Numbered from the stretch's first letter, positions 4,828 to 44,589 are shown. The stretch is 44,589 nt of DNA from an uncultured Candidatus Actinomarina sp. (GCA_902619825.1 CACNFT010000006.1:1-44589), one strand, 5' to 3'. A program made the numbers and translations. Notes: generated by a model from the letters alone, not told the origin.

Positions 4828-7800
4828 GTGCTTTTGTTTAAAAAGCTATTTTCGTTCGTCTTTAGTAAGAAAACTTTTAACTTAGTTATGTCATTTTTAA
4901 TGATTGTCTCTCTTGCATATGTCACTATTGAGACAATTGATCCTGAACCCGCTTTAGCATCCGGGGAGTTTTCATGTACAAATAGTGATGGTGCAGGATA
5001 CGTTTTTCAAAGTACTTATAGCAGTGGTACCTTAAGTATCTTACGTGGTTCAAATGACTCAAGTAGTTCGTTTTCAACTTCAACAATTGAGACTTTCAGT
5101 TCGTGGTCTCACGGAAATATTGAAGAAGTTAACTCTTTGAGTATCACACCAGATGGAGATATGTATGCAATTTTAAAGAGAACTAACACCAGCCAGGTTT
5201 ATTTTTATAAATTAAATTATAACGGTAGTGGGGCTGGTACTACGACACATATTTCTTCCGTTACAAGTGATTTAGGAACTGGTGATAATAATGCCGCTTC
5301 ATATTATGAAACTACATCTGGTGCCACAACATACAAGTATATTTTTACATCAAAAGGCTTCTTCAAAGGAAACAGTAAAGCAATAAGACTTAATTCTGAT
5401 GGTACCTATAAAGTTATCGATATCACAATCTCTTCAGGTAGTTCATGGGCATCAAACAAAGCAAAAGACTTCGCATTTATACAGGACAGTAGTACACACG
5501 ATTTTATAGCTTTTAACTCAAATACTGACGACCTACTTGCTGCAACTGTCTCACATACCAATATTGGTGCAAGCAATGAGTCTATCAGTGTTGCATTATC
5601 TCAAAGAGCTAGCAGTGTAGGTAGTTCAATGAGTTCAAACTCTGGTGCAGCTATGACCTTGGGAGATGGGATTGTCTATTTCTTAGAAAATGATGATGGA
5701 AGATTATGGAAGTATGACTATGCAAATGATACGTCCACAGGTAATGACACAAACGAATTTGTTTTAACAAGTGATAGTTTTAATTCTTCAAGCAACACTG
5801 ACGGTGCTGGTTGTGGTACTGGTAATGCTGAGCCACCTGCAGGTTCTGTAACTGCGAGTGCTGCATCCCAAGGCTCTTGCTCTAGTGGAGCAGCAACTGC
5901 AAACTTTACGCTATCAGCTACAGGTACCACTATGTATTATGACCTTCAGAGACGTATAGATACTGGATCAGGATTTTCCTCATGGCTTACAACTGTTAAT
6001 GGAGGAAGTATTTCAGCTGGCGGTTCTTTTACGGCTGGAACAGGGACTGCAAGAGATCATGGCACTGTTGTTGAATATCAATACAGAGCGGGATCATCAA
6101 ATCCATCATCAGGCAGTTATATATCTGTAGATTCTAATGGTGATTCATTATCAATAACAATTAATTGCCCATTAACTACATATAATGCAACTCCCTCGCT
6201 TGGATCTTGTTCAACTGGATTTGCACTGCCATCTATTGCAATTGAGAATACGGGTAATACAACTGCATACTTTGATGTGCAATACAAAATTGATAGTGGA
6301 TCTTGGGTAACGTTAGAAAATGGAAATGGTATTACCTCAGGTGCCACGGAAACGTATTCTTTACCCTCATCTCAAGCTCATGGTGTAGTTATTTCCTGGC
6401 AAGTTAGGAATGGAACTTCTAATCCATCTTCAGGAAGCTATACAAGTGCTGGTTCAAGTACAGTTGATTGTCCAACAGGAACTGTATCAGTCTCAGTTAG
6501 TGCAGGATCATGTTCTGCTGGATCTTCTACGCCTCAAATAAGTATTACAAATGGAACTAATGAAACACAAGTTTTTGATGTTCAGTACAAAATAGGTAGT
6601 GGTGGTACATGGCAAGATTTACAAGATGGAAATTCAATTTCAAGTAGTAGTACAGAAACGTACACTTTGTCTTCTGCTCAAACACACAACACCCAAGTCT
6701 ATTTTCAATATAGATACGCTACATCAAACCCATCTTCCGGTTCATATACTTCTACTGATGGCAGTAGCAATACTCTTTTAGCAACTGTAGATTGTGTATA
6801 CATTAACCCGGCAGCATCTCAGTCCTTTACAACTACCTGTTCTGCTGGTGCTAGAACTAATTCTCTTGTATTAACAAACGCTAGCCCTGCAAATTCAACT
6901 GCTTACTTTTTAGTTGAGTATTCTTTGGATGATGAAGCATCATGGACTGTAAAAGAATCAAATCAGGCTGTTGCTGTAGGTGGCTCTGAAACATTAACTC
7001 AATCAGTTGTTGATACAAAATTTATTGTATGGAGATATAAAACGTCTTCTACGAGTGATTCATTTACAGGAGACTACACGACAATGTCTGATAGCTCTAC
7101 CGTAGATTGTGATCCAGATATTACAGTATCCTCATCATTTGGAAGTTGTTCTGGTGGAGCGAAAACATCAACTCTTAGTCTTGAAAACAACGAAAGTTCT
7201 ACAGTGTATGTAAAAGTTGAATACTCAGTTGATGGTGGAACATATCAAACTAAAACAGCAAATCTTTCAATTAGCGGTAGTGCCACAGATACCTCACAAA
7301 CACATTCTGTAACCGATGGTCAGACTATAGCTTGGAGAATTACAGATGCATTTGATAGTGATGGTAATTTTACGAATATGGCAGTGGAAACTCAATCTAC
7401 TTCATCCCCAGTTGATTGTGATCCTGAAACAAATCTCTCTGCATCATTTGGCTCATGTGCGAGTGGTGCTAAGACTTCTACTCTAAGTATTGAAAATACA
7501 GAAAGCTCAACTGCATACTATAAGGTTGAGTATCAAATTGATAGTGGTACCTTTACTACGGCAAACTCTAATTTATCAGTTAGTAATGGTGCTACAGATA
7601 CATCTCAAACCGCCTCTGTCCCAGACGGATCTACAATAACATGGCGAATTACTGACTCTTTTGACAATGATGGCAATTTTACCAACATGGTTACCGAGAC
7701 CTTGGACGCTAGTGATGCTGTAGATTGTGATCCAAGCATCACAGTTGTTAATCCTCCAGCGATTGCTTGTGCAGGCTCACAAGGATCATCAACAATAAGT

Positions 7801-10800
7801 ATTACAAATAATGAAAGTTCAACTATTTATGTAAAGGTTGAATACAAAATAGATGACGGCTCATACCAATCAGCAAACGCAAACTTAACTATTGCTGGTG
7901 GGGCGACTGATACTAGTGTTTCACAAAATGTATCCAATGGTTCAAAAATCACATGGAGGGTGACTGATTCCTTCACAAATAATGACTTTACAAACATGAG
8001 TGCTGAGGTACAGACACAGAGCTCTACTGTTGATTGCTTAGTACCAACAACTTTTTCACACTCATTTGGTAGTTGTGCAAGTGGAGCAATGACAAACACA
8101 GCAAGCATTACAAATGATTCAAGTGCTACTGCTTACTACTTAGTTGAATACAAAATTGATGATGGTTCTTATCAAACTGCAGCAACTAACCTTTCTGTTG
8201 GAGCTGGTGCAACAAATACATCCTTGACTGCTTCTGTGCCTCATGGCTCAACAATTACTTGGAGATTTAAAGACAGCAGCACAGATGGTAATTTTTCTGG
8301 TGCAAGCTATGAAGAACAAGCAGCTAGTTCAACTGTAGATTGTGACCCTGAAGTTACAGCTACGCAAGCTTTTGGAAGTTGTTCAAGCGGTTCTCAAACA
8401 AATACTTTAACGCTAACTAATGCTGAAAGTGCAACTGCTTATGTAAAAGTCGAGTACAAGATTGATAGTGGTTCATATACGACTTTAAATAACAATGTTT
8501 CAGTATCAGCAAGTAGTACCGACACTTCTCAGTCAGTCGCAGTACCACATGGATCTACAATTACATGGAGGGTAACAGACTCATTTACAAGTGCTGACTA
8601 TACCAATATGACCGCAGAATCAGAGGTTACATCATCTGCTGCGGACTGTGATCCTGATTCAACATTTTCTACAGCTTTTGGAAGCTGTGGAAGTGGTGCA
8701 AAGACGTCTACATTGACCATTAATAATACAGAATCATCAGATACAGTCTATTACAAAGTCGAGTACAAAATTGATAGCGGTTCCTATACTACATTGTCTT
8801 CAAACCTCTCAGTGGCCGCAAGTGGAACCAATACAGCATCAACTGTAAGTGTTCCTGATGGATCAACAATTACATGGAAAATTACGGATACCTTTACTTC
8901 AGATGACTTTACTGCAATGTCAGCTGAGCAACAGACTACATCTGATGCAGTAGATTGTGATCCAGAAATTACAGTATCATCATCTTTTGGAAGTTGTTCT
9001 GGAACATCTAAAACCTCAACCTTATCAATTACAAGTGGAGAGGGATCACCAATTTATGTAAAAGTTGAATATTCTATAGATGGTGGTGCCTATCAGACAT
9101 CTTCAGCTAATTTAACTGTCTCCTCTTTCGCAACAGATACATCGCAAAGTGTCTCAGTTTCAGAAGGATCATCAATTACATGGAGAGTAACAGATTCATT
9201 TGATAGTGCTGATTTCACGAACATGAGTGCTGAAACTCAGTCTGCTAGTGAGGCTGGAACATGCACAACAACTACTACTACAACTACAACTACAACAACA
9301 ACTACTACAACAACTACTACTACAACAACAACAACGACTACAATTGCCCCAACTACAACAGCTCCACCTGAGGTATTTGACCCATTCTTCATAAACAATC
9401 GCCAATGTTCAGGTTCTGGAGCAAACTACTCATTTTATGTTGACAACACCTTTTCTTCAGTTGGAATGAGGTTGATTGTTCGAATTTGGGTAGATGGTAA
9501 TTTGTTAAGTAAGACAGAATATACTGTTGGCTCAGGCCAATTCTTTGGGGTAAATACTGTTTATAACGCTAGTGAGGGTTCAAGCTATAGAATTAAATTT
9601 AAAGTAAGGGACTTAAAATCCAATGAGTTAAAGGTAACAGGAAGATTTAAGAACAAAGTTAATTGTGATTTATTAACAGGAACTTCAACTACAACGACAA
9701 CATTACCAATAATTTCAACTACAACTATAACTACAATGCCGTTAGATGACGGCCTAGATTTCAGTGGTTTAGATATAGATTTTGGTGAATTAGAGGTCGG
9801 TCCAAAAAAGGAAAATCCAGATGATAATGAAGAAACAAACGAGGATGAGAATACAAGTGAAGATTCAAATAACCCTAATGGATCAAATGAAATAAATAGT
9901 GGAACTGATCCAGAAGACGGTGGAAACGATACTAATAATGAAGATGAATTTGATGGAGATGGTGACGAAGATTTCACAGAGTTAGTAGATAACAAACTAG
10001 TTGTTTGGGATGATTTTGAAGAAAATATATTTTTTACAGATGGTAGCTACAGAGTGAGATATAGATTTTCTGAGGATGCAATTCAGCTTGCTGATACAGG
10101 AATTGATTTAGACTATGTAGCAATCGGGGGATTGTCCTTTTTTGTTCTAGGCATTGTACTCTTCACAAGTTCAAGAAAAAGAAAATTGATGGATAGTGAA
10201 ACATCCCTTGAAGATATATATAAAAATGCATACAAATTAAAAATAAAAATTGAAAAACTTATAAAAGAAAAAGTTGAAATAAATATCGACATTAATAAGT
10301 TTGCTCCATATGCAAAAAATTTCAATTCTTATGAAAATGATATTCAAGATTTGAACAGTGAACTTCAATACACATTAGTTGCGATTAAAAATATTAAAAC
10401 TATTTGTGAGAAAAACAATGAAGAATTTACAAAAGATCTATTACAAGAAAGATTAAAGCTAATCTCTAAAAATTTTGAAATCAATTACACAGGAAATAAT
10501 TTAGAACAATCTGAATCTGTAAAAATTACTGAACAAAAAGATACAAAAAAAATTAAAAGAAAGTTTTTCGAGAGAAAACAATTGAGAAGACCTGTCATGG
10601 GGTTAGCTGTTTTATCTATTTTAATGGGAATGAGTTTTGGGATTTATGCAACTCAACAAATGTATTTATCAAATATCCAACAAGATAACGCACAAGATTA
10701 TCTAGAAAAACTTTATTTAGGTGAAGAAACTATTAATACAGAAAAACCAAACAACCTATATAAACCACTTAGAATTTTTCAGTCTGATAATCCTGTTTTT

Positions 10801-11265
10801 GACATATTTGAAGATTTCACCTCAATAGACCAAAGTTCAAAAATTGAAGAATATCAACCATCTGTTTTAGGTTTATTAGAAATCCCAAATACAAACATTA
10901 GTCAATATGTTGTCTCTGGAACAGATGATCAAAGTCTTCAATTTGGTCCAGGGCATTATCTTGGAACTAGTTTGCCAGGTTCAGGAGGAAATGTTGGTAT
11001 AGCTGGTCACAGAACTACCTACGGTGCACCATTTAGTAGACTTGATTCAGTTCAAATAGGTGACGAAATGTACCTTACAGTTGGCTCTAATAAATATCAT
11101 TATGTAGTTGATGAAATAGAAATCGTTGATCCTGTTACAGGAGATTATGTACTTTATGATAGAGGAGATGACAGACTTACTTTAACAACATGCCATCCAA
11201 GATATTCAGCTAGGCAGAGATTAGTAGTCTCAGGATTCCTTACAAAAATTGAAAGTGGTAATTAG
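4828..11265 (+). CDS. Giant surface repeat protein with internal LADTG sorting signal and fused C-terminal sortase domain
   Basis: The single frame encodes 2145 residues. (1) A Lys-rich, hydrophobic signal peptide ends with ALA-SG near residue 46. (2) A Ser/Thr-rich, propeller-like domain runs to about residue 335. (3) Eleven Ig-like repeats of about 100 residues follow, each bounded by two cysteines. (4) Then come 26 consecutive threonines, a twelfth related domain, a second Thr linker and a Glu/Asp/Asn-rich stretch. (5) LADTG at 1754-1758 is followed by a hydrophobic span and SRKRK, the layout of a sortase substrate. (6) A charged, coiled-coil-like cytoplasmic segment reaches about residue 1920. 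(7) A second span covers about 1923-1943. (8) The last 135 or so residues are a sortase domain with H2061, TLTTC ending at C2122 and R2131, resembling class E. The topology is consistent: repeats outside, linker inside, sortase outside. The start is GTG with no good Shine-Dalgarno. An internal ATG at 10189 could alternatively begin a separate 358-residue sortase. Confidence 0.85.
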   Translation: MLLFKKLFSFVFSKKTFNLVMSFLMIVSLAYVTIETIDPEPALASGEFSCTNSDGAGYVFQSTYSSGTLSILRGSNDSSSSFSTSTIETFSSWSHGNIEEVNSLSITPDGDMYAILKRTNTSQVYFYKLNYNGSGAGTTTHISSVTSDLGTGDNNAASYYETTSGATTYKYIFTSKGFFKGNSKAIRLNSDGTYKVIDITISSGSSWASNKAKDFAFIQDSSTHDFIAFNSNTDDLLAATVSHTNIGASNESISVALSQRASSVGSSMSSNSGAAMTLGDGIVYFLENDDGRLWKYDYANDTSTGNDTNEFVLTSDSFNSSSNTDGAGCGTGNAEPPAGSVTASAASQGSCSSGAATANFTLSATGTTMYYDLQRRIDTGSGFSSWLTTVNGGSISAGGSFTAGTGTARDHGTVVEYQYRAGSSNPSSGSYISVDSNGDSLSITINCPLTTYNATPSLGSCSTGFALPSIAIENTGNTTAYFDVQYKIDSGSWVTLENGNGITSGATETYSLPSSQAHGVVISWQVRNGTSNPSSGSYTSAGSSTVDCPTGTVSVSVSAGSCSAGSSTPQISITNGTNETQVFDVQYKIGSGGTWQDLQDGNSISSSSTETYTLSSAQTHNTQVYFQYRYATSNPSSGSYTSTDGSSNTLLATVDCVYINPAASQSFTTTCSAGARTNSLVLTNASPANSTAYFLVEYSLDDEASWTVKESNQAVAVGGSETLTQSVVDTKFIVWRYKTSSTSDSFTGDYTTMSDSSTVDCDPDITVSSSFGSCSGGAKTSTLSLENNESSTVYVKVEYSVDGGTYQTKTANLSISGSATDTSQTHSVTDGQTIAWRITDAFDSDGNFTNMAVETQSTSSPVDCDPETNLSASFGSCASGAKTSTLSIENTESSTAYYKVEYQIDSGTFTTANSNLSVSNGATDTSQTASVPDGSTITWRITDSFDNDGNFTNMVTETLDASDAVDCDPSITVVNPPAIACAGSQGSSTISITNNESSTIYVKVEYKIDDGSYQSANANLTIAGGATDTSVSQNVSNGSKITWRVTDSFTNNDFTNMSAEVQTQSSTVDCLVPTTFSHSFGSCASGAMTNTASITNDSSATAYYLVEYKIDDGSYQTAATNLSVGAGATNTSLTASVPHGSTITWRFKDSSTDGNFSGASYEEQAASSTVDCDPEVTATQAFGSCSSGSQTNTLTLTNAESATAYVKVEYKIDSGSYTTLNNNVSVSASSTDTSQSVAVPHGSTITWRVTDSFTSADYTNMTAESEVTSSAADCDPDSTFSTAFGSCGSGAKTSTLTINNTESSDTVYYKVEYKIDSGSYTTLSSNLSVAASGTNTASTVSVPDGSTITWKITDTFTSDDFTAMSAEQQTTSDAVDCDPEITVSSSFGSCSGTSKTSTLSITSGEGSPIYVKVEYSIDGGAYQTSSANLTVSSFATDTSQSVSVSEGSSITWRVTDSFDSADFTNMSAETQSASEAGTCTTTTTTTTTTTTTTTTTTTTTTTTTTIAPTTTAPPEVFDPFFINNRQCSGSGANYSFYVDNTFSSVGMRLIVRIWVDGNLLSKTEYTVGSGQFFGVNTVYNASEGSSYRIKFKVRDLKSNELKVTGRFKNKVNCDLLTGTSTTTTTLPIISTTTITTMPLDDGLDFSGLDIDFGELEVGPKKENPDDNEETNEDENTSEDSNNPNGSNEINSGTDPEDGGNDTNNEDEFDGDGDEDFTELVDNKLVVWDDFEENIFFTDGSYRVRYRFSEDAIQLADTGIDLDYVAIGGLSFFVLGIVLFTSSRKRKLMDSETSLEDIYKNAYKLKIKIEKLIKEKVEINIDINKFAPYAKNFNSYENDIQDLNSELQYTLVAIKNIKTICEKNNEEFTKDLLQERLKLISKNFEINYTGNNLEQSESVKITEQKDTKKIKRKFFERKQLRRPVMGLAVLSILMGMSFGIYATQQMYLSNIQQDNAQDYLEKLYLGEETINTEKPNNLYKPLRIFQSDNPVFDIFEDFTSIDQSSKIEEYQPSVLGLLEIPNTNISQYVVSGTDDQSLQFGPGHYLGTSLPGSGGNVGIAGHRTTYGAPFSRLDSVQIGDEMYLTVGSNKYHYVVDEIEIVDPVTGDYVLYDRGDDRLTLTTCHPRYSARQRLVVSGFLTKIESGN
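5842..9264 (+). repeat. Eleven tandem Ig-like domain repeats, about 100 codons each
   Basis: Each unit starts near a GSC or similar cysteine motif, continues through a YYKVEYKIDSGSY-like strand and a GSTITWRVTDSF-like strand, and closes with VDC. Between units 5 and 6 the first cysteine recurs after 309 bases (7147 to 7456). Units 1-4 are more divergent (NPSSGSY type), and units 5-11 are closely alike (FTNM type). The first paired cysteine is at 5878 and the last at 9262. A twelfth, degenerate copy follows the Thr stalk (RQCSGSG to KVNC). One disulfide per domain is likely. Confidence 0.85.
9265..9342 (+). repeat. ACN triplet microsatellite encoding 26 threonines
   Basis: Twenty-six consecutive ACA/ACT/ACG codons directly follow the last cysteine of repeat 11. 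Because the array is built of triplets, length change would lengthen or shorten the stalk without shifting the frame. Such Thr runs are typical of flexible, possibly glycosylated stalks on surface proteins. Confidence 0.9.
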
Positions 11266-11892
11266 ATGGTAACAGAACCTTTAAAGAAAGATGGTAGAAG
11301 TGTCAGAGGTAAAAAAACTTTTGATGATGTACATAAAAAGCTAATCGATAGCGCTGTTCAACTTTTTAACAACCCAATACTTTCACCAGATCGAGTAACT
11401 GTCACAGAAATTGCAAAACATGCTGGTGTATCGGTAGCTACTGCCTATAATCATTTTCCTGAAAATAAACTAGATGTTTACGGATCACTATTTCAATTGG
11501 GTTTTCAGGATGTATCTGTAGAATTTAATAAATTTTTAGAATCATCTCCTGATGCAGATGAAGCAATTAAAGTTTTTTTAGATACGATAGTTTTAAAATG
11601 CGTTGAATTGGGTAATGCTATAAGATTTGCATGGTTTGAGGTCAGAGAAATACTTGCTTCTGGTAAGTGGATACAAGGTGAGCCTTATGATGTCTTACAC
11701 AAACTATGCACAAATTATGATTCAAAAAATGCAGACAATTTGTGTGACGATATTTTTCAAATGTTTAATGGTGCAACATTACTCTGGTTAAGATACGATC
11801 CTGATTACTCAGTTTGGTCAAAATATACAGATGAATGGTATATGGAAAATGTTAACCAGATTTTTGATAAGGTAACTAAAATTCACGAGTAG
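11266..11892 (+). CDS. TetR/AcrR-family transcriptional regulator
   Basis: The 208-residue protein has an N-terminal helix-turn-helix of the TetR type around residues 44-64 (VTEIAKHAGVSVATAYNHFP), where the YNHF segment is the usual end of the recognition helix. The remaining helical part would bind a ligand or form the dimer; it is rich in Trp and Asp near the end and I recognise no specific subfamily. The ATG directly follows the stop of the sortase-fusion gene, so it is likely co-transcribed with it. It could control this surface-protein island, but no operator could be identified with confidence. Confidence 0.85.
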   Translation: MVTEPLKKDGRSVRGKKTFDDVHKKLIDSAVQLFNNPILSPDRVTVTEIAKHAGVSVATAYNHFPENKLDVYGSLFQLGFQDVSVEFNKFLESSPDADEAIKVFLDTIVLKCVELGNAIRFAWFEVREILASGKWIQGEPYDVLHKLCTNYDSKNADNLCDDIFQMFNGATLLWLRYDPDYSVWSKYTDEWYMENVNQIFDKVTKIHE

Positions 11893-11895
11893 CTC

Positions 11896-13338
11896 ATGAA
11901 AAAAATCTTAATATTTCTGTCATTTTTTTTATTTTTTAATGCCTCATTTTTTAATCCAATTTTAGATACAAATAATATTGAGATTGAAATAAATCGTCTT
12001 GTAGGTGAGGATATTTCAATCACCTGGTCCGTTAATTATGACACTTATGATTACATAGTCATGGAGATCTCTCATAGAAATAATGATGAAAAATATGAGC
12101 TATCAAGCTCTGAAGGAGAAGTCAAATTATGTTGTTACCCAGACTATGTTCGAGTAACGATTACAGTTTTTGTGACAAAAATTGAGGACGTTACCGGTTC
12201 AGATTGTGCAGTAGGAGAGTGCAAAAAATTTACAAAGGAAGAATATGTCAATCAAGAATTACTTCAAATAATTCCACCACCCACCACTACTTCAACAACG
12301 ACTACAACAACTACAACAACTACACTTCCCCCATCAATAATTGAGGAAACAGATTTTTTAAATATTGAAATTACTAATGAACTCATAACTACGATTCCAT
12401 TGTTTGAAGATGTCGATCTTACTGATCAAGAAAAAAATAGCATTGCTGTCATAGTTTCCACTGGAATAATCATATTATTTTATATTGTTTTGCTTTTACA
12501 AGAATGGTTTAACAAAATTATTTCAACAAACAACATTAAATGGTTTTCAAAGGAAAAAACGTTTAAAGGCTCTCGGAAATTAGTTAATTTTATCAAGGTA
12601 GTTTTTGTTCTTTTATCAACAGCATTTTTAATTGGATATGTTGAAGAAGGAGCTGATTTATCCCTTGATCTTGAAAATCTTGCAATATTCATTAGTGCTT
12701 TGGTTGGTTTGATTGTAGTAACTTTATTTTACGAGGGAACAGAGGGTTTTATTGAGAGGAAAATATTCAAACAAAACGTAAATATCAAATGGGCTCCTCA
12801 GGCAGTATTCTTTGCTGGTATTTCAACACTAGCTTTTATTTATTTTGAAATGCCTATTGGCTTTATTTTCGGATTCTTCGCAACTGCATATATTGCAGGT
12901 AATAGAAACACAGCGAAATTATCTCCAAAATTTTACTCAATGATGATTTTAAGCTTAGGCGGATTTGGGTTTTTCTATCTTACTTCGGTTCCATTGATAA
13001 AAGAATCATCAGTTTTTACAGCTATTGCTGCTTTGAGTTATTTAATGTGTTTAGAAGGTGTTTTATTTAAGTCTCTGCCAGGAGGTGGTAATGAACTATT
13101 TGAATCACTTCGTGACTCCAAAGGTATTTATAAAGTTTTTCCCCTAATAAGTTTTCTTTTAGGTGTTTGGTTATTCATTAGAGTTTTAATTATTCAACCA
13201 GACAGTGAATTCGCTAATATGCAACAAGAACTCTTAAGCATGGGATCATTTTCTTATACATTAGGATTAGGTTTGTTAGGCTATATATCTGTAATCCTTT
13301 TCTTAGGATTATTCATAAAAGTTTCAAATAAAAAATGA
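11896..13338 (+). CDS. Membrane protein: secreted beta domain, Thr stalk and 8-9 transmembrane helices
   Basis: I do not recognise this 480-residue protein. It begins with a signal peptide (MKKILIFLSFFLFFNAS). An extracellular domain of about 100 residues with four cysteines follows (two adjacent at 79-80, then 104 and 109), and then a Pro/Thr stalk (about 127-146). The rest is a polytopic membrane region with hydrophobic spans near residues 183-202, 232-249, 261-279, 300-335 (probably two), 347-365, 371-391, 413-433 and 452-475. The ATG lies three bases after the TetR stop, and its own stop overlaps the next gene in ATGA, so it belongs to the same transcription unit. The sensor-on-a-stalk layout suggests a surface receptor or transporter partner, but no function can be assigned. 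Confidence 0.75.
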   Translation: MKKILIFLSFFLFFNASFFNPILDTNNIEIEINRLVGEDISITWSVNYDTYDYIVMEISHRNNDEKYELSSSEGEVKLCCYPDYVRVTITVFVTKIEDVTGSDCAVGECKKFTKEEYVNQELLQIIPPPTTTSTTTTTTTTTTLPPSIIEETDFLNIEITNELITTIPLFEDVDLTDQEKNSIAVIVSTGIIILFYIVLLLQEWFNKIISTNNIKWFSKEKTFKGSRKLVNFIKVVFVLLSTAFLIGYVEEGADLSLDLENLAIFISALVGLIVVTLFYEGTEGFIERKIFKQNVNIKWAPQAVFFAGISTLAFIYFEMPIGFIFGFFATAYIAGNRNTAKLSPKFYSMMILSLGGFGFFYLTSVPLIKESSVFTAIAALSYLMCLEGVLFKSLPGGGNELFESLRDSKGIYKVFPLISFLLGVWLFIRVLIIQPDSEFANMQQELLSMGSFSYTLGLGLLGYISVILFLGLFIKVSNKK

Positions 13339-14144
13339 CAAACCGATATATAAATTCATTTATTGTTGGTCTACTGATAATTTCACTTATCGTAATCAAT
13401 TCAAACCAAAATGAAATATCAACAGAAAGTGAAGATGATACAGATGAAATTATACAAACTACCCAAGCAACTACTACTTCTTTCACAACTTCAACATCAA
13501 CTTCAACGACTACCTCTTCTACAACCTCCACATCAACTTCAACGACTACTTCCACATCAACTTCAACATCAACTTCTTCTACAACCTCCACATCAACTTC
13601 AACGACTACTTTCACATCAACTACTGTTTACTCTGGTCCATTTAGTAAATATGCGGGGTTTGAAGGTTCTAATCAGTCCCAATTAGAAGAGTTATCAACT
13701 CAACTACCCGAGCTTATGTTGAAAATTATAAATGTAAATAATATTTCCGTAATTAATGGATGTCATCAATACGGAAAATCACTTGTTGATAGATGTCCAT
13801 ATGGAGTGTGGGATCAACCAGGTACTAGTCCCGATGGAACAAAAAATGCTGAATGGAGTTTCTCTATTTGGATATCAAACCGTGCTTTTGCAGCAGGTGT
13901 TGCATACGACGTTCTACTTCATGAATCATTACATGCATTTTCATATTCAACGAGAAATTGTCCTACTGAGACCAATACAAATTACAGACAAGAAGCAAGA
14001 AATTTTTTTGGAGGAGAAGAATATTTAGTTGATGCTTTAGTTCTTTACTATGGCGGAACTTATAATCATTATCGTACAACAGGGAAACTCGATGAGGGTG
14101 AAATTAATTATCTAACAAAATACATCAACACTTGTTCAATTTAA
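13335..14144 (+). CDS. Putative secreted or anchored HExxH metalloprotease with Ser/Thr stalk
   Basis: The 269-residue protein has an N-terminal hydrophobic signal or anchor (about residues 7-22). A Ser/Thr-only stalk spans about residues 43-96, and a C-terminal domain carries HESLH at 196-200. A GGEEYLVDAL segment at about 226-235 could give the third zinc ligand (E228 or E229), as in gluzincin-type peptidases. There are four cysteines in the domain. It overlaps the preceding membrane-protein gene by four bases (ATGA), so the two are translationally coupled. No family assignment beyond the zinc motif is possible. It may act on, or mature, other proteins of this island; that is inference from position only. 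Confidence 0.75.
   Translation: MTNRYINSFIVGLLIISLIVINSNQNEISTESEDDTDEIIQTTQATTTSFTTSTSTSTTTSSTTSTSTSTTTSTSTSTSTSSTTSTSTSTTTFTSTTVYSGPFSKYAGFEGSNQSQLEELSTQLPELMLKIINVNNISVINGCHQYGKSLVDRCPYGVWDQPGTSPDGTKNAEWSFSIWISNRAFAAGVAYDVLLHESLHAFSYSTRNCPTETNTNYRQEARNFFGGEEYLVDALVLYYGGTYNHYRTTGKLDEGEINYLTKYINTCSI
13515..13622 (+). repeat. Direct repeat inside the Ser/Thr stalk
   Basis: Bases 13515-13562 recur at 13575-13622 with a single mismatch (48 bases, period 60). They encode the Ser/Thr stalk of the metalloprotease. The period is a multiple of three, so copy-number change would keep the frame. Confidence 0.85.
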
Positions 14145-14257: not shown

Positions 14258-15607
14258 ATGTCCGCAAGGTCACAATTACAATCAAAACCAGTAGCAGATC
14301 TTCGTGAAATTGCTGATGATCTTGGTCTTGAACATAAGGGACTACAAAAAGCAAAGTTAATTGATCTTTTATTGGAGCAAGGCGATGCAATTAATGAAAT
14401 CGCTGATACACCTGAAGAAGAAGTAGCTGTTATAGCTACAGACAACGATATGCCATCCGTCGTCAATTCTGGTGATAGTCAAATCAAAGAGGGTGAAACC
14501 AGAGAAGGCATTCTTGACATCCTTCCAGAGGGTTACGGATTTTTAAGATGTAGCGGTTATAAACCAAGTGAGATGGATGTTTATGTCCCTGCAGGAGCAA
14601 TCAAAAAATTTAGAATGAGAAAAGGAGATCTCGTTGCAGGTCCAATTCGTTCACCACGTGTAAAAGAAAAATATCCTGCATTAGTTGAACCCAAGACTGT
14701 AAATGGCGCTGACCCAGAACTACTAGCTCGTAGAGTAGACTTTGATAAACTTACACCCCTTTTTCCTGATGAAAGATTAAAACTTGAAATTGATGGTGAA
14801 CCAGAACGACTTGTTGGAAGAATCGTAGACCTTATTGCACCTATTGGAAAAGGTCAGAGAGGATTGATTGTTTCTCCACCGAAAGCAGGTAAAACTACAA
14901 TTCTTAAAGAAATTGCAAATTCTATTACTGCTAACAATCCGGAAGTTTATTTAATGGTTGTCCTAGTTGATGAAAGACCAGAAGAGGTAACCGACATGCA
15001 ACGTTCAGTAGATGGAGAAGTTGTATTTTCAACCTTTGATAGACCACCAGATGAGCACACCCAAGTCTCTAAATTAGCTATTGAAAGAGCAAAAAGACTT
15101 GTTGAAGAAGGTAAGGACGTTGTAATTTTATTGGATTCAATTACAAGACTTGCGAGAGCTCATAACTTAGCTACTCCAGCTAGTGGAAGAATTTTGTCAG
15201 GTGGTGTTGATTCGACTGCTTTAACTCCTCCTAAACAATTCTTTGGTGCAGCTAGAAACATAGAAGGTGGAGGAAGCCTAACAATTCTTGGTACTGCACT
15301 TGTTGAGACTGGATCAAAAATGGATGAAGTTATCTTCGAAGAGTTTAAGGGAACTGGAAACATGGAACTTCGTTTAGATAGACAACTTGCAGACAAGAGA
15401 GTCTTTCCTGCCATCGATGTTACTCCATCTGGAACTCGTGAAGAGCAACGACTAGTTTCACAAAAAGAACTTGAGTCATTATGGACTCTAAGAAGAGTTC
15501 TTGTCGGCCTTGAGGGTGGAGCAGCAACAGAATTATTAATAGATAGGCTTAAGACTCTGAAAAGTAATGACGCATTCTTAAAGGATGTCGCAAAAACCAA
15601 TAAATAA
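14258..15607 (+). CDS. rho: Transcription termination factor Rho
   Basis: Rho is a hexameric RNA-dependent ATPase that ends transcription. The 449 residues show a SAP-like Rho_N domain (about 12-42), a cold-shock-type RNA-binding domain (about 82-145, with EGYGFLR), Walker A PPKAGKTT at 207-214 and Walker B DVVILLD at 287-293. Many actinobacterial Rho proteins carry a long charged insertion after the Rho_N domain; here that region is only about 40 residues, so this is a compact form. The start is decided by AGGAG at 14249-14253, four bases before the ATG. It has its own promoter and heads the translation-factor group. Confidence 0.96.
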   Translation: MSARSQLQSKPVADLREIADDLGLEHKGLQKAKLIDLLLEQGDAINEIADTPEEEVAVIATDNDMPSVVNSGDSQIKEGETREGILDILPEGYGFLRCSGYKPSEMDVYVPAGAIKKFRMRKGDLVAGPIRSPRVKEKYPALVEPKTVNGADPELLARRVDFDKLTPLFPDERLKLEIDGEPERLVGRIVDLIAPIGKGQRGLIVSPPKAGKTTILKEIANSITANNPEVYLMVVLVDERPEEVTDMQRSVDGEVVFSTFDRPPDEHTQVSKLAIERAKRLVEEGKDVVILLDSITRLARAHNLATPASGRILSGGVDSTALTPPKQFFGAARNIEGGGSLTILGTALVETGSKMDEVIFEEFKGTGNMELRLDRQLADKRVFPAIDVTPSGTREEQRLVSQKELESLWTLRRVLVGLEGGAATELLIDRLKTLKSNDAFLKDVAKTNK

Positions 15608-34215: not shown

Positions 34216-34903
34216 AAATCAAGAACAAAATATTGAAAAAATAAGAGAAGATTTTGTTGCAAATGCATCTCATGAGTTGAAAACTCCGATAACGTCCATC
34301 CAACTAGCAGCAGAGACAGCATTAAATGCTATAAATGATGGAAATACAGAGGATGGATTAAAGTTTATTAAACAAATTCTTAGAAACAGTGAACGAATGT
34401 CACTCCTTATCAGTGATTTACTTGATTTATCTAAAATTGAGCAAAATGAACCAAATTTAGAAATTTCTGATCTTGAAAATATAGTAAATATGGAAATTTC
34501 ATACTTAAAAGAAAACGATCAAGCCAGACTTAATGCAAACATTGAAAATATTCATATAAATGTTGACCAAGAAGATTTTGCATTAATCGTTCGAAATATA
34601 TTACGTAACGCAGTTACTTATTCTGACCCAGACACTCCTATTGAAGTTCATTTGAAGAAGGATGATGAAGATGTTTTATTCAAAGTAATAGATAAAGGTA
34701 AGGGAATCTCTCAACAAGATCAAGAAAGAATCTTTGAACGATTCTATAGAATTGATAAAGGCAGGTCTAGAAACTTAGGTGGAACAGGAATCGGTCTTTC
34801 AATAGTAAAACATGCAGTTGATAGGAATAACGGGACAATTGAACTAGACAGTTTGCTAGGTGAGGGCACTACTTTTTCAATTAAATTTAAACAAAATGTA
34901 TGA
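34208..34903 (+). CDS. Soluble PhoR-like histidine kinase lacking a sensor domain
   Basis: The 231 residues hold only the kinase core. The HisKA helix has H22 in ANASHELKTPITS. The HATPase domain has RNILRNAVTYSDP, DKGKGIS, ERFYRIDKGRS and GGTGIGLSIVKH. There is no membrane span, PAS or HAMP domain, whereas PhoR/SenX3-type kinases normally have membrane and PAS parts. A stop codon (34202-34204) in the same frame just before the ATG rules out a longer N-terminus. It overlaps the response-regulator gene by eight bases and ppk by four, so it is a coupled partner of that regulator. Input probably comes through PhoU or PstB, which is inference. Confidence 0.9.
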   Translation: MNENQEQNIEKIREDFVANASHELKTPITSIQLAAETALNAINDGNTEDGLKFIKQILRNSERMSLLISDLLDLSKIEQNEPNLEISDLENIVNMEISYLKENDQARLNANIENIHINVDQEDFALIVRNILRNAVTYSDPDTPIEVHLKKDDEDVLFKVIDKGKGISQQDQERIFERFYRIDKGRSRNLGGTGIGLSIVKHAVDRNNGTIELDSLLGEGTTFSIKFKQNV

Positions 34904-36876
34904 CAGATATAGATCTTCTTGATCGTGAATCATCCTGGTTAGAGTTCAACAAAAGAGTATTAACTTTATCAAAAGATAGCAGTGTTCCTTTCAAGGATCG
35001 TTTATTTTTATTCGGTATAACACATTCTAATTTAGATGAGTTTTTTCAGATTCGAATTTCTGGATTGCTTGAAAAAGTTTACGAGACTATTAACCAAAAG
35101 CTGGATGTTTCAATTTCGAAAGAAACATTTGTATATTTTAAAGATATTCTTGAAGAAGCTAAAAAGGAGATGATAAATAGAAACACAGTTTGGAAAGAAT
35201 ATTTTGTAAAAGATCTAGAAAAGCATGGTGTAAATTTTAAGAGGATGAAAGACCTCACTGAATCTGAGCTTGATATATTAGAAGATTATTTTGATAACAA
35301 TATAAAACCCCTCCTTACTCCCTTGGCTGCAGACCCTACACATCCATTTCCATACATTTCTGATTTATCATTGTCTATCGGCGTAGTCATCAAAAACGAA
35401 TTTGAAGATAATCAATTTATACGTATAAAAATCCCAGCAAGTTTAGGTTCATTTGTAAATTTAAATAAGGAACAACTTGTATGGATACATGAATTGATTC
35501 TTCACTATATTGATAAACTGTTTTTTCCACACACAGTTATTGAAAAGTTTTGGTTTAGAACAACTCGTGATGCAGATTTAGAATTTAGAGCAAGTTTAAA
35601 GCGAAATTTTCTGGAAGTTGTAAAAGAGGGATTAGAAAATAGAAAATTAGGAAAAATTGTAAGATTAGAAATCCAAGAGGGAGTTTCAGTAACAACTCAA
35701 AAATACTTAAAAAATAATTTAGAAATAGATTATGACCTTCAAGTTGAATTAAAGGACCCACTTACTAGATTTCAAATTAATTCTTTGATAGACCATATCG
35801 AATTTTCTACAAGTTGGAAATTACATGAGACTGAATTTGAATTTAGCAATGATATGTTTGAAATTATTAAAAATAATGATGTGATGGTACATCATCCTTA
35901 TGATTCATTTGAGAAAACAGTTTTGCGATTTTTAGAAAAAGCATGTTTTGATCCATATGTACGTGCCATAAAAATGACACAATATAGAACTGGTTTAACT
36001 GCTGAAAACGATAAGATAACATCCCTATTAGCAAGTGCAGCGAGAGGAGGTAAACAAGTTGCTGTTTTAGTTGAATTGAGAGCACGGTTCGATGAAGAGC
36101 AAAACATCTCGAATGCTGAATACTTAGAAGAATCAGGTGTTCATGTTACGTATGGAGATCCAAGATATAAAGCTCATACCAAAATGATTTTAGTTGTTCG
36201 TGAAGAAAATAATGAATTAGTACCATATATGCACTTTGGAACAGGTAATTACAATGTTTTAACATCAAAGGGATATGAGGATATTGGCATTTTCACATCT
36301 GATAAAAGTATTGGTAATGATTGTGGAATAGTTTTTAATTCGTTAACTGCTTATGCTGATAGAGAAAATCTTGATGAGTTGCTAGTAGCCCCTGAGTCTT
36401 TAGAGAAAAATATTAACTCATTAATTGAAGAACAAATAGATTTAGGAGAAGAAGGAAAAATTGTTTTAAAATTGAATAATCTTACTGATCCATTAATCAT
36501 ACAAAAATTATATGATGCGGCTAATGCAGGTAATCAGATAAATATTATAGTAAGGGGAATTTGTTGTCTCATACCAATTAAAAATATAAATGTTATTTCT
36601 ATACTTGGTCCTTTTTTAGAACACTCAAGAATATATAAATTTGGAAGATCAGATATAGAAAAAATATATATAGGGTCTGCAGATTTAATGCAAAGAAACT
36701 TAAGACATAGAATTGAAGTATTAGTACCTATAAAAAGCCCGATAATAAAAAAGAAACTCAGTAGTCTCTTAGAAAAATATATAAAGTCTGACAAGTATTC
36801 ATGGACGTTAAAAAATGATGGAACATGGAAAAAATTAGATGGAAACTACAATATCCAAGAGAAGTTAAACAAATAA
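34900..36876 (+). CDS. ppk1: Polyphosphate kinase 1
   Basis: PPK1 reversibly polymerises the gamma phosphate of ATP into polyphosphate. The 658-residue protein has the four-domain layout. The N-terminus reads RESSWLEFNKRVL, THPFPYISDLSLS follows, and the phospholipase-D-like catalytic part has H426 in KAHTKMILV and HFGTGNYN. RNLRHRIEVLVPI supplies the second conserved histidine. It begins in an ATGA overlap with the kinase gene, so polyphosphate synthesis is tied to the phosphate-response genes. Confidence 0.95.
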   Translation: MTDIDLLDRESSWLEFNKRVLTLSKDSSVPFKDRLFLFGITHSNLDEFFQIRISGLLEKVYETINQKLDVSISKETFVYFKDILEEAKKEMINRNTVWKEYFVKDLEKHGVNFKRMKDLTESELDILEDYFDNNIKPLLTPLAADPTHPFPYISDLSLSIGVVIKNEFEDNQFIRIKIPASLGSFVNLNKEQLVWIHELILHYIDKLFFPHTVIEKFWFRTTRDADLEFRASLKRNFLEVVKEGLENRKLGKIVRLEIQEGVSVTTQKYLKNNLEIDYDLQVELKDPLTRFQINSLIDHIEFSTSWKLHETEFEFSNDMFEIIKNNDVMVHHPYDSFEKTVLRFLEKACFDPYVRAIKMTQYRTGLTAENDKITSLLASAARGGKQVAVLVELRARFDEEQNISNAEYLEESGVHVTYGDPRYKAHTKMILVVREENNELVPYMHFGTGNYNVLTSKGYEDIGIFTSDKSIGNDCGIVFNSLTAYADRENLDELLVAPESLEKNINSLIEEQIDLGEEGKIVLKLNNLTDPLIIQKLYDAANAGNQINIIVRGICCLIPIKNINVISILGPFLEHSRIYKFGRSDIEKIYIGSADLMQRNLRHRIEVLVPIKSPIIKKKLSSLLEKYIKSDKYSWTLKNDGTWKKLDGNYNIQEKLNK

Positions 36877-41233: not shown

Positions 41234-42242
41234 CTTCCCAAGTTCCTAAAGAACGAATAAGCTTATCAAGTTCTCCTTCACCTTTTTGTTCAATAGATGA
41301 GTCAATTTGTTCTCTGACTTCATCATTGTAAGTATCTCTTTCAACTTGTCTAAAGATACCTACTGGTGTTGGCCCATAAGGCCCATGAGACAATCTTGAT
41401 AATGAAAAAGCAATTGAAGGGTTATCTTTTGTAATGTCATGAACATAAATCTCACTATCATCTATTTCTGATCTTTTGACAATGACTGCTTCTCCATCAC
41501 GAATTGTTACAGCATTCTCATCTTCTGCCCCAAAGATAACTTTCTCACCATGTTTAAGATTTATACGATTTGCTATTTTTCCTTCCTTTGAAGTTAACTG
41601 CTCAAAAGCTTTGTCATTAAACACATTACAGTTTTGATAAATCTCAACATAAGCTGAACCCTCATGTTCAGATGCTGCTCGTAGTACCTCTGCTGTAAGA
41701 TCTCTATCCATATCAATTGACCTTGCAACAAATGATGCCTCAGCTCCTAAGGCTAAACTCATTGGGTTTAGTGGAAGCTCTACAGAACCAAAGGGAGAAG
41801 ATTTTGTTTTCTTTCCTTCTTCACTGGTAGGGGAATACTGTCCTTTGGTAAGTCCATATATTTGATTATTGAACATTAAAATCTTCATATTTACATTTCT
41901 TCTTAGTGCATGAATTAAGTGGTTTCCTCCAATAGATAGTGCGTCACCATCTCCAGATACTACCCAAACTGAAAGATCTGGGTTAGATGCACTTACTCCA
42001 GTAGCTACTGCAGGAGCACGACCATGGATAGAATGTAAACCGTATGTGTTCATGTAGTAAGGAAATCTTGCTGCACAACCAATGCCAGATACAAACACAA
42101 TATTTTCTTTTCTGATACCTAATTCAGTCATAAAGTTTTGCACTGAAGCAAGAATTGTATAATCACCACACCCAGGGCACCATTTAACCTCTTGGTCACT
42201 AGCAAAGTCAGCTCTTTTATATGAGAGAGGAATTTTACTCAT
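41226..42242 (-). CDS. korB: 2-oxoacid:ferredoxin oxidoreductase beta subunit
   Basis: KorB binds thiamine diphosphate and a 4Fe-4S cluster and, with KorA, oxidises a 2-oxoacid (probably 2-oxoglutarate) to the acyl-CoA, passing electrons to ferredoxin. The 338 residues carry CPGCGDY (C22, C25) and GDGDALSIGGNH for thiamine diphosphate. The FPYYMNTYGLHSIHGRAPAVATG segment matches the family. It begins inside the end of korA (eight-base overlap). Confidence 0.94.
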   Translation of the reverse strand: MSKIPLSYKRADFASDQEVKWCPGCGDYTILASVQNFMTELGIRKENIVFVSGIGCAARFPYYMNTYGLHSIHGRAPAVATGVSASNPDLSVWVVSGDGDALSIGGNHLIHALRRNVNMKILMFNNQIYGLTKGQYSPTSEEGKKTKSSPFGSVELPLNPMSLALGAEASFVARSIDMDRDLTAEVLRAASEHEGSAYVEIYQNCNVFNDKAFEQLTSKEGKIANRINLKHGEKVIFGAEDENAVTIRDGEAVIVKRSEIDDSEIYVHDITKDNPSIAFSLSRLSHGPYGPTPVGIFRQVERDTYNDEVREQIDSSIEQKGEGELDKLIRSLGTWEVN

Positions 42243-44589
42243 CAGTCTTTACTTCCTCTTTTTTCTCTTCCTCTACCTTGTTTCTTTCTTCATCAATGTC
42301 TTGAACAAGTTCTTTATTCTCAGGCATATTCTCATCAACTTTTTCAATAATTCTCTCAGTCACTCTTTCAGTGACCCTTTCGACAACTCTCTCTACTACA
42401 GGTTCTTGAGCTTCTGCTGCTGGTTCTTCAGATGTATCTGATTTTACTTCTTCAACAACTGGCTCTTCTTCAACAACTGGCTCTTCTTCAAGAACTGGTT
42501 CTTGTTCAACAACTGGTTCTTGGGTTTCTGCTGCTGGTTTATCTGCACTCATTTCTTCTAAAACTTGCTCAACAGGTATACCTAATGCTTTTGCACGTGC
42601 TTCAGCAGATCTCATTATGAGGTGTTCTGGTATTCCAACCTCTTCAACTACAGGTTCTTCCTCAGCTACAACCTCTTCAACTACAGGTTCTTCCTCAGCT
42701 ACAACTTCTTCTACGATAGGCTCGAGTTTTGTACCAAAAGAGTTTATGAGAGATTCGATTTTTTCTTCTAATTCTTGAGCTGTAAAAGGTAAACCTTCAA
42801 CTTTATTGATTCCGACAGTATCGACAAGATAACGTGCACGTAAAAGTTTTGACAATTGGCCAGTGTTTAATTCAGGGACAATGATGTTTTTAAATTGACT
42901 CAAAACTTCAGCTGTGTTGTCTGGGAAAGGATTGATGTGTGTGAAGTGTGCACTTGCTACCTTTACACCTTTTGAATTGAGTCTGTTTACAGCTTGTGTG
43001 ATACCACCAAAAGTTGATCCCCAACCCAAAATGAGAGTATCTGATGATATGTCTCCATTTATTTCAAGTGGGTCAATATCATTTGCTATATTTTCAATTT
43101 TCCATGCTCTCATATCTGTCATGTATTGGTGATTATCAGTGTCATAAGAAACATTTCCAGTTCCATCTTCTTTTTCTAATCCACCTACACGATGCTCTAA
43201 TCCTGGTACTCCAGGAATAGCCCATGGTCGAGCATTAGTTTCGTAATCTCTAAAAAATGGTAAAAACCCATCTTCAGTGTTGTAAGTCGTGGTTAAATTT
43301 GTTCCCAATTCATCAAGGTTTTCAATCTCAGGTAGTTTCCAAGGCTCAGAACCTGTAGCAACATAGTTGTCTGACAATAAAATAACGGGTGTCATATATT
43401 TAAGAGCAATACGTGTTGCCTCAAACGCTGCATAGAAAGCATGAGATGGGGATTTAGCTGCAACTACTGGTAAAGGAGCCTCTCCATGGCGTCCATACAT
43501 TGCAAACATTAGATCAGACTGTTCTGGTTTTGTAGGTAGTCCCGTTGATGGCCCACCCCTTTGAACATTAACTACTACTAAAGGCAATTCTGCAGAAAGG
43601 GCTAAAGATATGGTTTCACTTTTTAGAGCAAGACCTGGTCCACTGGTTCCTGTAACTGCAAGCTTTCCTGTAAAGGAAGCACCTACTGCTGCTGCAGCAG
43701 CTGCAATTTCATCTTCAGCTTGGAAAGTCAACACATTGAAATTTTTGTGTTTTGATAACTCATGCAATATATCTGATGCAGGAGTAATAGGATAACTTCC
43801 GTAAAACAGATCGAGATTAGCTTTTTTAGCACCCGCAATAAGACCCCAACTTAAACCGATATTTCCATTTATATTGGTATACTCTCCAGCTGGTAATGAG
43901 GCCTTATCTACTTTATAAGTATGGTGAAATGCCTCAACTGTAATACCAAAGTTGTATCCAGTCTTGAGTGCTTTTATGTTTGCTTTTGCGACTTCTGGTA
44001 GATTTTTGAATTTCTCGTTTATCCAATTTTCAGTATCTTTTAGATCTCTGTTAAAAGTCCATGAAATTAAACCAAGAGCTATCATATTTTTAGAACGTAA
44101 AACTGCTCTTCCAGGTAAATCAAATTCCTCCAAAGCTTCCTTTGTTAGTTTTTCCATTGGGACTTGAAAAATTCTATATCCATCAAGTTCCTCAGATTCT
44201 CTAGGATCTATCTCATAACCTGCTTTTTTAATATTTTTTTCATCAAAAGCATCTTCGTTTAATATCAACATTCCGTTTGGTGTTAAATCTTGTAGGTGAG
44301 CTTTCAAAGCAGCAGGGTTCATAGCAACTAAAACATCAGGGGCATCTCCTGGTGTCAAAATATCAAAGTCAGCAATTTGAACTTGGAAGGAAGATACACC
44401 TGCAACTGTTCCTTGAGGAGCCCTAATTTCAGCAGGAAACGCTGGCAAAGTAGCAAGATCGTTTCCAAATAAAGCAGAAGTGTCTGTGAATCTAGTACCA
44501 ACTAATTGCATACCATCACCTGAATCACCAGCAAAACGAATGGTAACGGCTGGTATAGACTCAACAGTTTTATTTTCTATGCTTACTTC
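42235..44589 (-). CDS. korA: 2-oxoacid:ferredoxin oxidoreductase alpha subunit, gamma-alpha fusion, with long acidic tail; 5' end missing
   Basis: The frame is open to the right edge: AGDSGDGMQ, the start of the gamma domain, begins at 44532, upstream of the first internal ATG (44511). The true start therefore lies at or beyond the edge. The order is the gamma domain (to about residue 190 from 44511), the alpha domain with YPITPASDILHEL, TSGPGLALKSE and the C-terminal transketolase-like part to about residue 580. A tail of about 180 residues follows, made of EEPVVEE repeats, with a short helix-like insert (IPEHLIMRSAEARAKALG) and a charged end (VERVTERVTERIIEKV). The tail is not part of the usual enzyme. 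It overlaps korB by eight bases. Confidence 0.92.
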   Translation of the reverse strand, partial: EVSIENKTVESIPAVTIRFAGDSGDGMQLVGTRFTDTSALFGNDLATLPAFPAEIRAPQGTVAGVSSFQVQIADFDILTPGDAPDVLVAMNPAALKAHLQDLTPNGMLILNEDAFDEKNIKKAGYEIDPRESEELDGYRIFQVPMEKLTKEALEEFDLPGRAVLRSKNMIALGLISWTFNRDLKDTENWINEKFKNLPEVAKANIKALKTGYNFGITVEAFHHTYKVDKASLPAGEYTNINGNIGLSWGLIAGAKKANLDLFYGSYPITPASDILHELSKHKNFNVLTFQAEDEIAAAAAAVGASFTGKLAVTGTSGPGLALKSETISLALSAELPLVVVNVQRGGPSTGLPTKPEQSDLMFAMYGRHGEAPLPVVAAKSPSHAFYAAFEATRIALKYMTPVILLSDNYVATGSEPWKLPEIENLDELGTNLTTTYNTEDGFLPFFRDYETNARPWAIPGVPGLEHRVGGLEKEDGTGNVSYDTDNHQYMTDMRAWKIENIANDIDPLEINGDISSDTLILGWGSTFGGITQAVNRLNSKGVKVASAHFTHINPFPDNTAEVLSQFKNIIVPELNTGQLSKLLRARYLVDTVGINKVEGLPFTAQELEEKIESLINSFGTKLEPIVEEVVAEEEPVVEEVVAEEEPVVEEVGIPEHLIMRSAEARAKALGIPVEQVLEEMSADKPAAETQEPVVEQEPVLEEEPVVEEEPVVEEVKSDTSEEPAAEAQEPVVERVVERVTERVTERIIEKVDENMPENKELVQDIDEERNKVEEEKKEEVKTDE
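42448..42702 (-). repeat. Short tandem repeats coding the acidic tail of korA
   Basis: An exact 33-base unit occurs twice in tandem at 42637-42669 and 42670-42702 (encoding VVAEEEPVVEE-type units). Degenerate 18-base units (TTCTTCAACAACTGGCTC type) run from about 42448 to 42522. Both periods are multiples of three. Confidence 0.85.

Follow-up and report, generated by a model that had tools for sequence, protein, structure and literature searches.

Sortases are known as separate enzymes that act in trans, and the gene described here, from Candidatus Actinomarina, a group of tiny and abundant ocean bacteria, joins such an enzyme to a putative substrate of its own. It occupies 4828-11265 (+) of a 44,589-nucleotide stretch from an uncultured member of the genus (GCA_902619825.1, CACNFT010000006.1:1-44589; 35% GC), the whole of which we call the window. 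The closest described enzymes are the class E sortases (Streptomyces coelicolor SrtE1 and SrtE2, Thermobifida fusca SrtE), with which it shares the sortase fold, the His-Cys-Arg residues, a LAXTG-type signal, the tyrosine of the S3 subsite and a cytoplasmic N-terminal extension ahead of a membrane span (PMC5148588). The SrtE enzymes, however, are free proteins, whereas here the substrate lies within the chain, a folded domain separates two membrane spans, and the His-Cys spacing is 62 as against 69 in SrtE1. There is also a likeness to substrate-sortase gene pairs, such as AbpA-SrtB of the oral streptococci (PMC4974636) and those of pilus islands, in which a dedicated sortase stands beside its substrate; sister Actinomarina have just such a pair, whereas the lineage of the window has it as one polypeptide. 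Finally, engineered fusions (Mao's method and BISOP; PMC2901362) carry sortase and recognition site on one chain that cuts itself, but these are man-made and soluble and have the sortase before its target, while the natural protein has the substrate first and is predicted to be membrane-bound. Sortase chemistry and sorting signals are already known, and what is new is a natural fusion that has been conserved; the open-access literature that we searched yielded neither a natural conserved sortase-substrate fusion nor any Actinomarina sortase.

The frame is uninterrupted over 2145 codons, and all of the features listed in the original prediction, made from the sequence alone, stand at the residues given there. 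A signal peptide opens the chain; an extracellular domain and repeats take up the next 1430 residues or so and lead, by way of a poly-threonine spacer, a small domain and an acidic stretch, to the pentapeptide LADTG. Beyond it come a hydrophobic span with its basic tail (SRKRK), a domain on the cytoplasmic side, another span and finally the sortase, the sidedness of these parts being predicted throughout:

4828..11265 (+): whole fused gene, surface protein plus sortase; an open frame that recurs in 20 genomes
4828..4962 (+): signal peptide, a hydrophobic stretch and then ...PEPALASG; from the sequence and from fused relatives with homologous N-termini
4963..9264 (+): extracellular N-terminal domain and cysteine-containing repeats of about 80-90 residues; from the sequence
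9265..9343 (+): poly-threonine spacer, a tandem repeat
9361..10086 (+): small domain on the extracellular side, with an acidic and a conserved stretch ahead of the signal; homologous between the fused and the unfused surface proteins
10087..10101 (+): sorting motif LADTG (residues 1754-1758), its A, T and G the same in all of 19 fused loci
10117..10164 (+): first membrane span, which belongs to the sorting signal; from the hydropathy of homologues and the sequence
10174..10185 (+): stop-transfer tail RKRK (residues 1783-1786); almost every fused locus is basic here
10204..10509 (+): folded cytoplasmic domain; common to the unfused sortases by alignment, and modelled
10594..10653 (+): second membrane span; from the hydropathy of homologues and the sequence
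10867..11262 (+): sortase catalytic domain; by Pfam, NCBIfam and fold match
10957-10959, 11008-11010, 11191-11193 and 11218-11220 (+): key sortase residues Y2044, H2061, C2122 and R2131, respectively

The start codon is uncertain; GAGGGG, a sequence resembling a ribosome site, lies about 33 nt upstream of the GTG at 4828. A Pfam search of the extracellular domain and repeats gave no convincing family and matched no adhesin family, and an adhesin role for the surface part is a guess. The pentapeptide, hydrophobic span and basic tail of a sorting signal on an exported protein are represented by LADTG, the first span and RKRK behind a signal peptide; unlike the standard LPxTG/LAxTG cell-wall signals, this one is not C-terminal, since 387 more residues follow LADTG, whereas its counterpart in the sister lineage does lie at the C-terminus. 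What the original prediction called a linker between the spans is indeed there, but it contains a compact folded domain, which modelled alone reaches high confidence (pLDDT 89.7). For this domain (10204-10509) Pfam gave no convincing match and a PDB fold search no match at all, making it a candidate for a small domain without prior description.

The predicted sortase is complete: Pfam Sortase (PF04203) matches residues 2017-2136 with E = 6.6e-30 (103.9 bits against a cut-off of 26.6), H2061, C2122 and R2131 are present, and the catalytic His, Cys and Arg are invariant across the fused and unfused sortases. A predicted model of the C-terminal 445 residues, the kind of check that the original prediction had proposed, matches solved sortases, with SrtE enzymes among its fold neighbours. 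The best NCBIfam class is E (NF033747, E = 1.6e-31, below the curated cut-off), and judged by its sequence the enzyme is best called class-E-like, without being filed as a class E member. It has the S3-subsite tyrosine of that class (Tyr2044, in GPGHY), and it is about 9 residues shorter than S. avermitilis SrtE where class E has its long beta6/beta7 loop, an insertion of 21 aa relative to class A in SrtE1 that is listed as a class E trait. Transpeptidase activity is predicted, and recognition of LAXTG is putative, the LAxTG sitting on the enzyme's own chain. The second-best class was C, and a dedicated sortase with one repeat-rich substrate is typical of pilus systems; one might therefore imagine a polymerising, pilus-type enzyme that would cut LAxTG and link the surface part to a lysine in the following surface protein, so that a fibre grows either ahead of attachment to the wall or in its place. 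We think this unlikely, given the class E assignment and the SrtE fold neighbours; moreover, no second pilin gene adjoins, and no pilin motif was noticed, although no search aimed at one was made.

The sortase was searched in relatives, a profile of the linker and sortase was run over the genus (42 genomes) and the loci were then compared. The fusion occurs in 20 Candidatus Actinomarina genomes, that of the window and 19 others, and thus recurs, as the original prediction had proposed to check, in independent assemblies. The fully contained frames extend up to 2892 aa, while the remainder run off contig ends or are incomplete upstream; every fused locus has [LM]A[ADEN]TG ahead of the first span. 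Among the matches listed from 120 Acidimicrobiia genomes, the sortase frames outside Actinomarina reach at most 849 aa, as against more than 1700 for the complete fused ones. Purifying selection acts across the junction: over the signal and first span, dN/dS is 0.00-0.31 in close pairs of fused genomes (where computable), and the joined protein is therefore the unit that selection sees. An assembly or sequencing error joining two genes might be suspected, as a two-gene form does exist in relatives, but the identical join stands in 20 genomes, and with so many single-cell assemblies among the records (AG-... names) one misassembly common to all of them is not believable. We reject such an error, whose probability we regard as negligible. 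Nor was a real absence of the gene the usual explanation for genomes without a hit. Ten of these were checked, and thrC, a gene of the same locus, was found in five and was likewise missing from the other five; of the five with thrC, three have the giant frame cut off by the end of the contig, one has it stopping at 742 codons, and only G061 has a truly empty site. In most of the checked cases, then, the giant gene is broken by a contig end or the region is missing.

The two-gene form lies at the same locus in seven genomes (G003, G014, G021, G022, G023, G032 and G034), with additional copies in four other, misnamed bins. The unfused surface protein, 3660-3760 aa where complete, ends in a classical sorting signal, span and basic tail, the signal being IPFTG, LPVTG, FPRTG, YA[IV]TG, FADTG or YGPTG. 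Directly downstream is the gene for the sortase (542-560 aa), whose parts are, in order, a first span of its own, a RecA C-terminal domain, the same linker domain, the second span and the catalytic domain. The C-terminal parts of the fused and unfused surface proteins are homologous as well. Since both the substrate ends and the linker, second span and sortase are thus shared, the sorting-signal span of the fused protein occupies the place of the unfused sortase's own first span. A simple loss of a stop codon is ruled out, whether in evolution or as an error, because the unfused sortase carries an extra first span and a RecA C-terminal domain that the fused proteins lack. This domain (PF21096, E about 1e-18; residues ~83-138 of the sortases at L052:12999-14657 and L049:13277-14902), in the predicted cytoplasmic loop, is an extra copy besides that in recA itself.

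In a tree of the sortases, the unfused proteins form one well-supported clade and the fused proteins one clade in the best tree (72/96). It is most likely that an adjacent substrate-sortase gene pair became one protein, and the single fused clade argues that this probably happened once; fission in the sister lineage is a less favoured, though still viable, history. The original prediction had treated two-gene relatives as grounds for rejecting the fusion. They do exist, but only in this separate sister lineage, where they show the probable source of the fusion and do not refute it. A Rho tree was dropped as a species tree, being poorly resolved and in strong conflict with the fused/unfused grouping of the sortase tree, and it supports no conclusion on vertical history. 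Its conflict does hint at a possible transfer of the cassette from one lineage to another through recombination in the flanking DNA (rho is at 14258-15607 of the window, and was taken with its relatives).

One tie between the substrate and its enzyme comes from the motif itself. In the 19 fused loci LAxTG never departs from its A, T and G whereas x varies, and the residue just before LAxTG is the most variable of the stretch. Kattke et al. (2016) have proposed that class E sortases choose Ala over Pro at the second position of the motif by means of the S3-subsite tyrosine (PMC5148588). We mapped this site through T. fusca SrtE to the last residue of GPGxY: the tyrosine of its GPGWY lies 94 residues before the catalytic Cys, which equals the distance from Y128 to C222 in the PDB mutant names (in SrtE1, Tyr229 and Cys320 are 91 residues apart). 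All of the fused enzymes have Tyr at this site and all of their signals have Ala. Among the unfused enzymes, those with Ala or Gly signals (FADTG, YA[IV]TG or YGPTG) also have Tyr, and those with Pro signals (IPFTG, LPVTG or FPRTG) have Ile. The Tyr/Ile switch thus tracks the Ala/Pro switch, a change predicted by the published rule, and suggestively ties each enzyme to its own signal.

The genome of the window (~91% complete) has one sortase. A scan for L[AP]xTG gave 40 pattern hits against 33 for a reversed-pattern control, and among them, all inspected apart from the fused gene's own, there was no convincing second sorting signal at a C-terminus. The suggestion that the enzyme may also process other LAxTG proteins in trans accordingly finds no support in this genome. 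PF00746 had no match over the cut-off in any Actinomarina genome searched, an uninformative result, as hits with E <= 1 also occurred in 13 of 14 control genomes. These data bear on the possibility that the chain stays whole, as a tethered surface protein whose sortase acts on others in trans, its own LAxTG being a leftover. Sortases do normally act in this way, and it is we who infer the cleavage; nevertheless, a leftover motif would decay, and this one has held its A, T and G unchanged throughout the fused clade, the genome offers no other sorting signal that we could find, and the specificity residue of the enzyme follows the neighbouring signal. We consider an uncut chain improbable.

Our preferred explanation, which we hold to be likely, is a self-processing, class-E-like sortase-substrate polyprotein that would cut itself, or a neighbouring copy, between the T and G of its motif. 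That the sortase is fused to its own substrate, the central claim of the original prediction, is strongly supported by the conserved fusion, the unfused pair at the same locus, the invariant LAxTG and the covariation of enzyme and signal. The chain would be exported through Sec, leaving the repeats outside; the first span and RKRK would stop transfer and keep the small domain on the inner side, and by virtue of the second span the sortase would end up outside, beside LAxTG. The roughly 70 residues from the second span to the catalytic core could give it the reach to a motif some 5 residues above the membrane. Its cysteine would then attack the Thr-Gly bond of LAxTG on its own chain or on a neighbouring copy, and the surface part would be transferred to a cell-wall amine (lipid II or peptidoglycan). 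The genome encodes peptidoglycan transpeptidases and a wall acceptor is therefore likely, although the cell wall of Actinomarina is so far without characterisation (PMC7771536). Remaining in the membrane would be Gly, span 1, the domain, span 2 and the sortase, the same layout as the free two-span sortase of the sister lineage. As far as the sequence can tell, the most economical mechanism would be one in which the surface part is released by its own sortase and the sortase remains anchored in the membrane.

Two proteins might instead arise by other means, either because translation also begins internally, ahead of the sortase half, or because another protease cuts the linker. The window (at 10190) and its nearest relatives do have an in-frame ATG after RKRK, but conservation of this Met does not extend to the other fused genomes and ATG 10190 has no clear ribosome site; moreover, even with an internal start, selection would still require the unbroken frame that all 20 genomes keep. 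We judge this very unlikely. Several points do weigh against the self-processing polyprotein: its cleavage is something that we infer; the full C-terminal model is of low confidence (pTM 0.34) and cannot place the motif in the active site, so that it does not tell cis from trans; the class E score is 109.8 bits against a curated cut-off of 160; and the Tyr/Ile covariation is one switch inside one clade, hence not a statistical proof. As for the reason behind the fusion, one may guess at two: that each substrate is thereby supplied with exactly one enzyme, or simply that a streamlined genome is economical.

Downstream of the fused gene, the window continues with these neighbours:

11266..11892 (+): TetR-type regulator (Pfam TetR_N), a neighbour that plays no part in the proposed mechanism
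11896..13338 (+): secreted multi-span protein, a conserved neighbour in fused and unfused loci, with no Pfam family
13335..14144 (+): secreted protein with an HExxH-like HESLHAF motif after a Thr-rich spacer, a conserved neighbour in the same place in unfused loci

The unfused order is thrC, the TetR-type regulator, the gene pair, the multi-span secreted protein, the secreted protein with the Thr-rich spacer, and rho. The neighbourhood is common to both forms apart from the regulator, which is downstream of the fused gene in the window and upstream of the pair in the unfused genomes. In G061 (L199, G061:C7:1-2200), thrC, the TetR-type regulator and rho stand directly in a row; the surface protein, the sortase and the two neighbour genes are absent together, as if these formed one cassette. 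Elsewhere in the window, a polyphosphate kinase (34900-36876) adjoins a pst/pho-like phosphate cluster. A search of 24 other genomes of Actinomarina did not find this kinase, which may have been acquired recently, and its absence there made it unusable as a second phylogenetic marker. The interval 69-2108, just before hom, encodes a secreted reprolysin-like metallopeptidase with a weak cadherin-like match, and 42235-44511 (-) a look-alike of a 2-oxoacid:acceptor oxidoreductase alpha subunit that ends in a long tail of acidic repeats (EEPVVEEVVAEEEPVVEE...), which is not usual in enzymes of this sort.

The self-cleaving sortase fusions made in the laboratory have a natural parallel in the conserved fusion, which together with the sister lineage provides a before-and-after pair at one locus for the study of how gene pairs turn into polyproteins in streamlined genomes. 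The paired Tyr/Ile and Ala/Pro switches, similarly, put the proposed S3-tyrosine rule for LAxTG recognition to the test in nature; a published attempt by mutation failed because of the instability of the mutants (PMC5148588). To our minds the case is evenly balanced as to whether this is a natural cis-acting sortase polyprotein, in which each surface protein brings the enzyme that releases and anchors it. If it is, display would be a one-enzyme-per-substrate reaction that leaves the sortase behind as a two-span membrane protein after its cargo has gone. The system also gives a first handle on the little-characterised cell surface of this abundant marine group.

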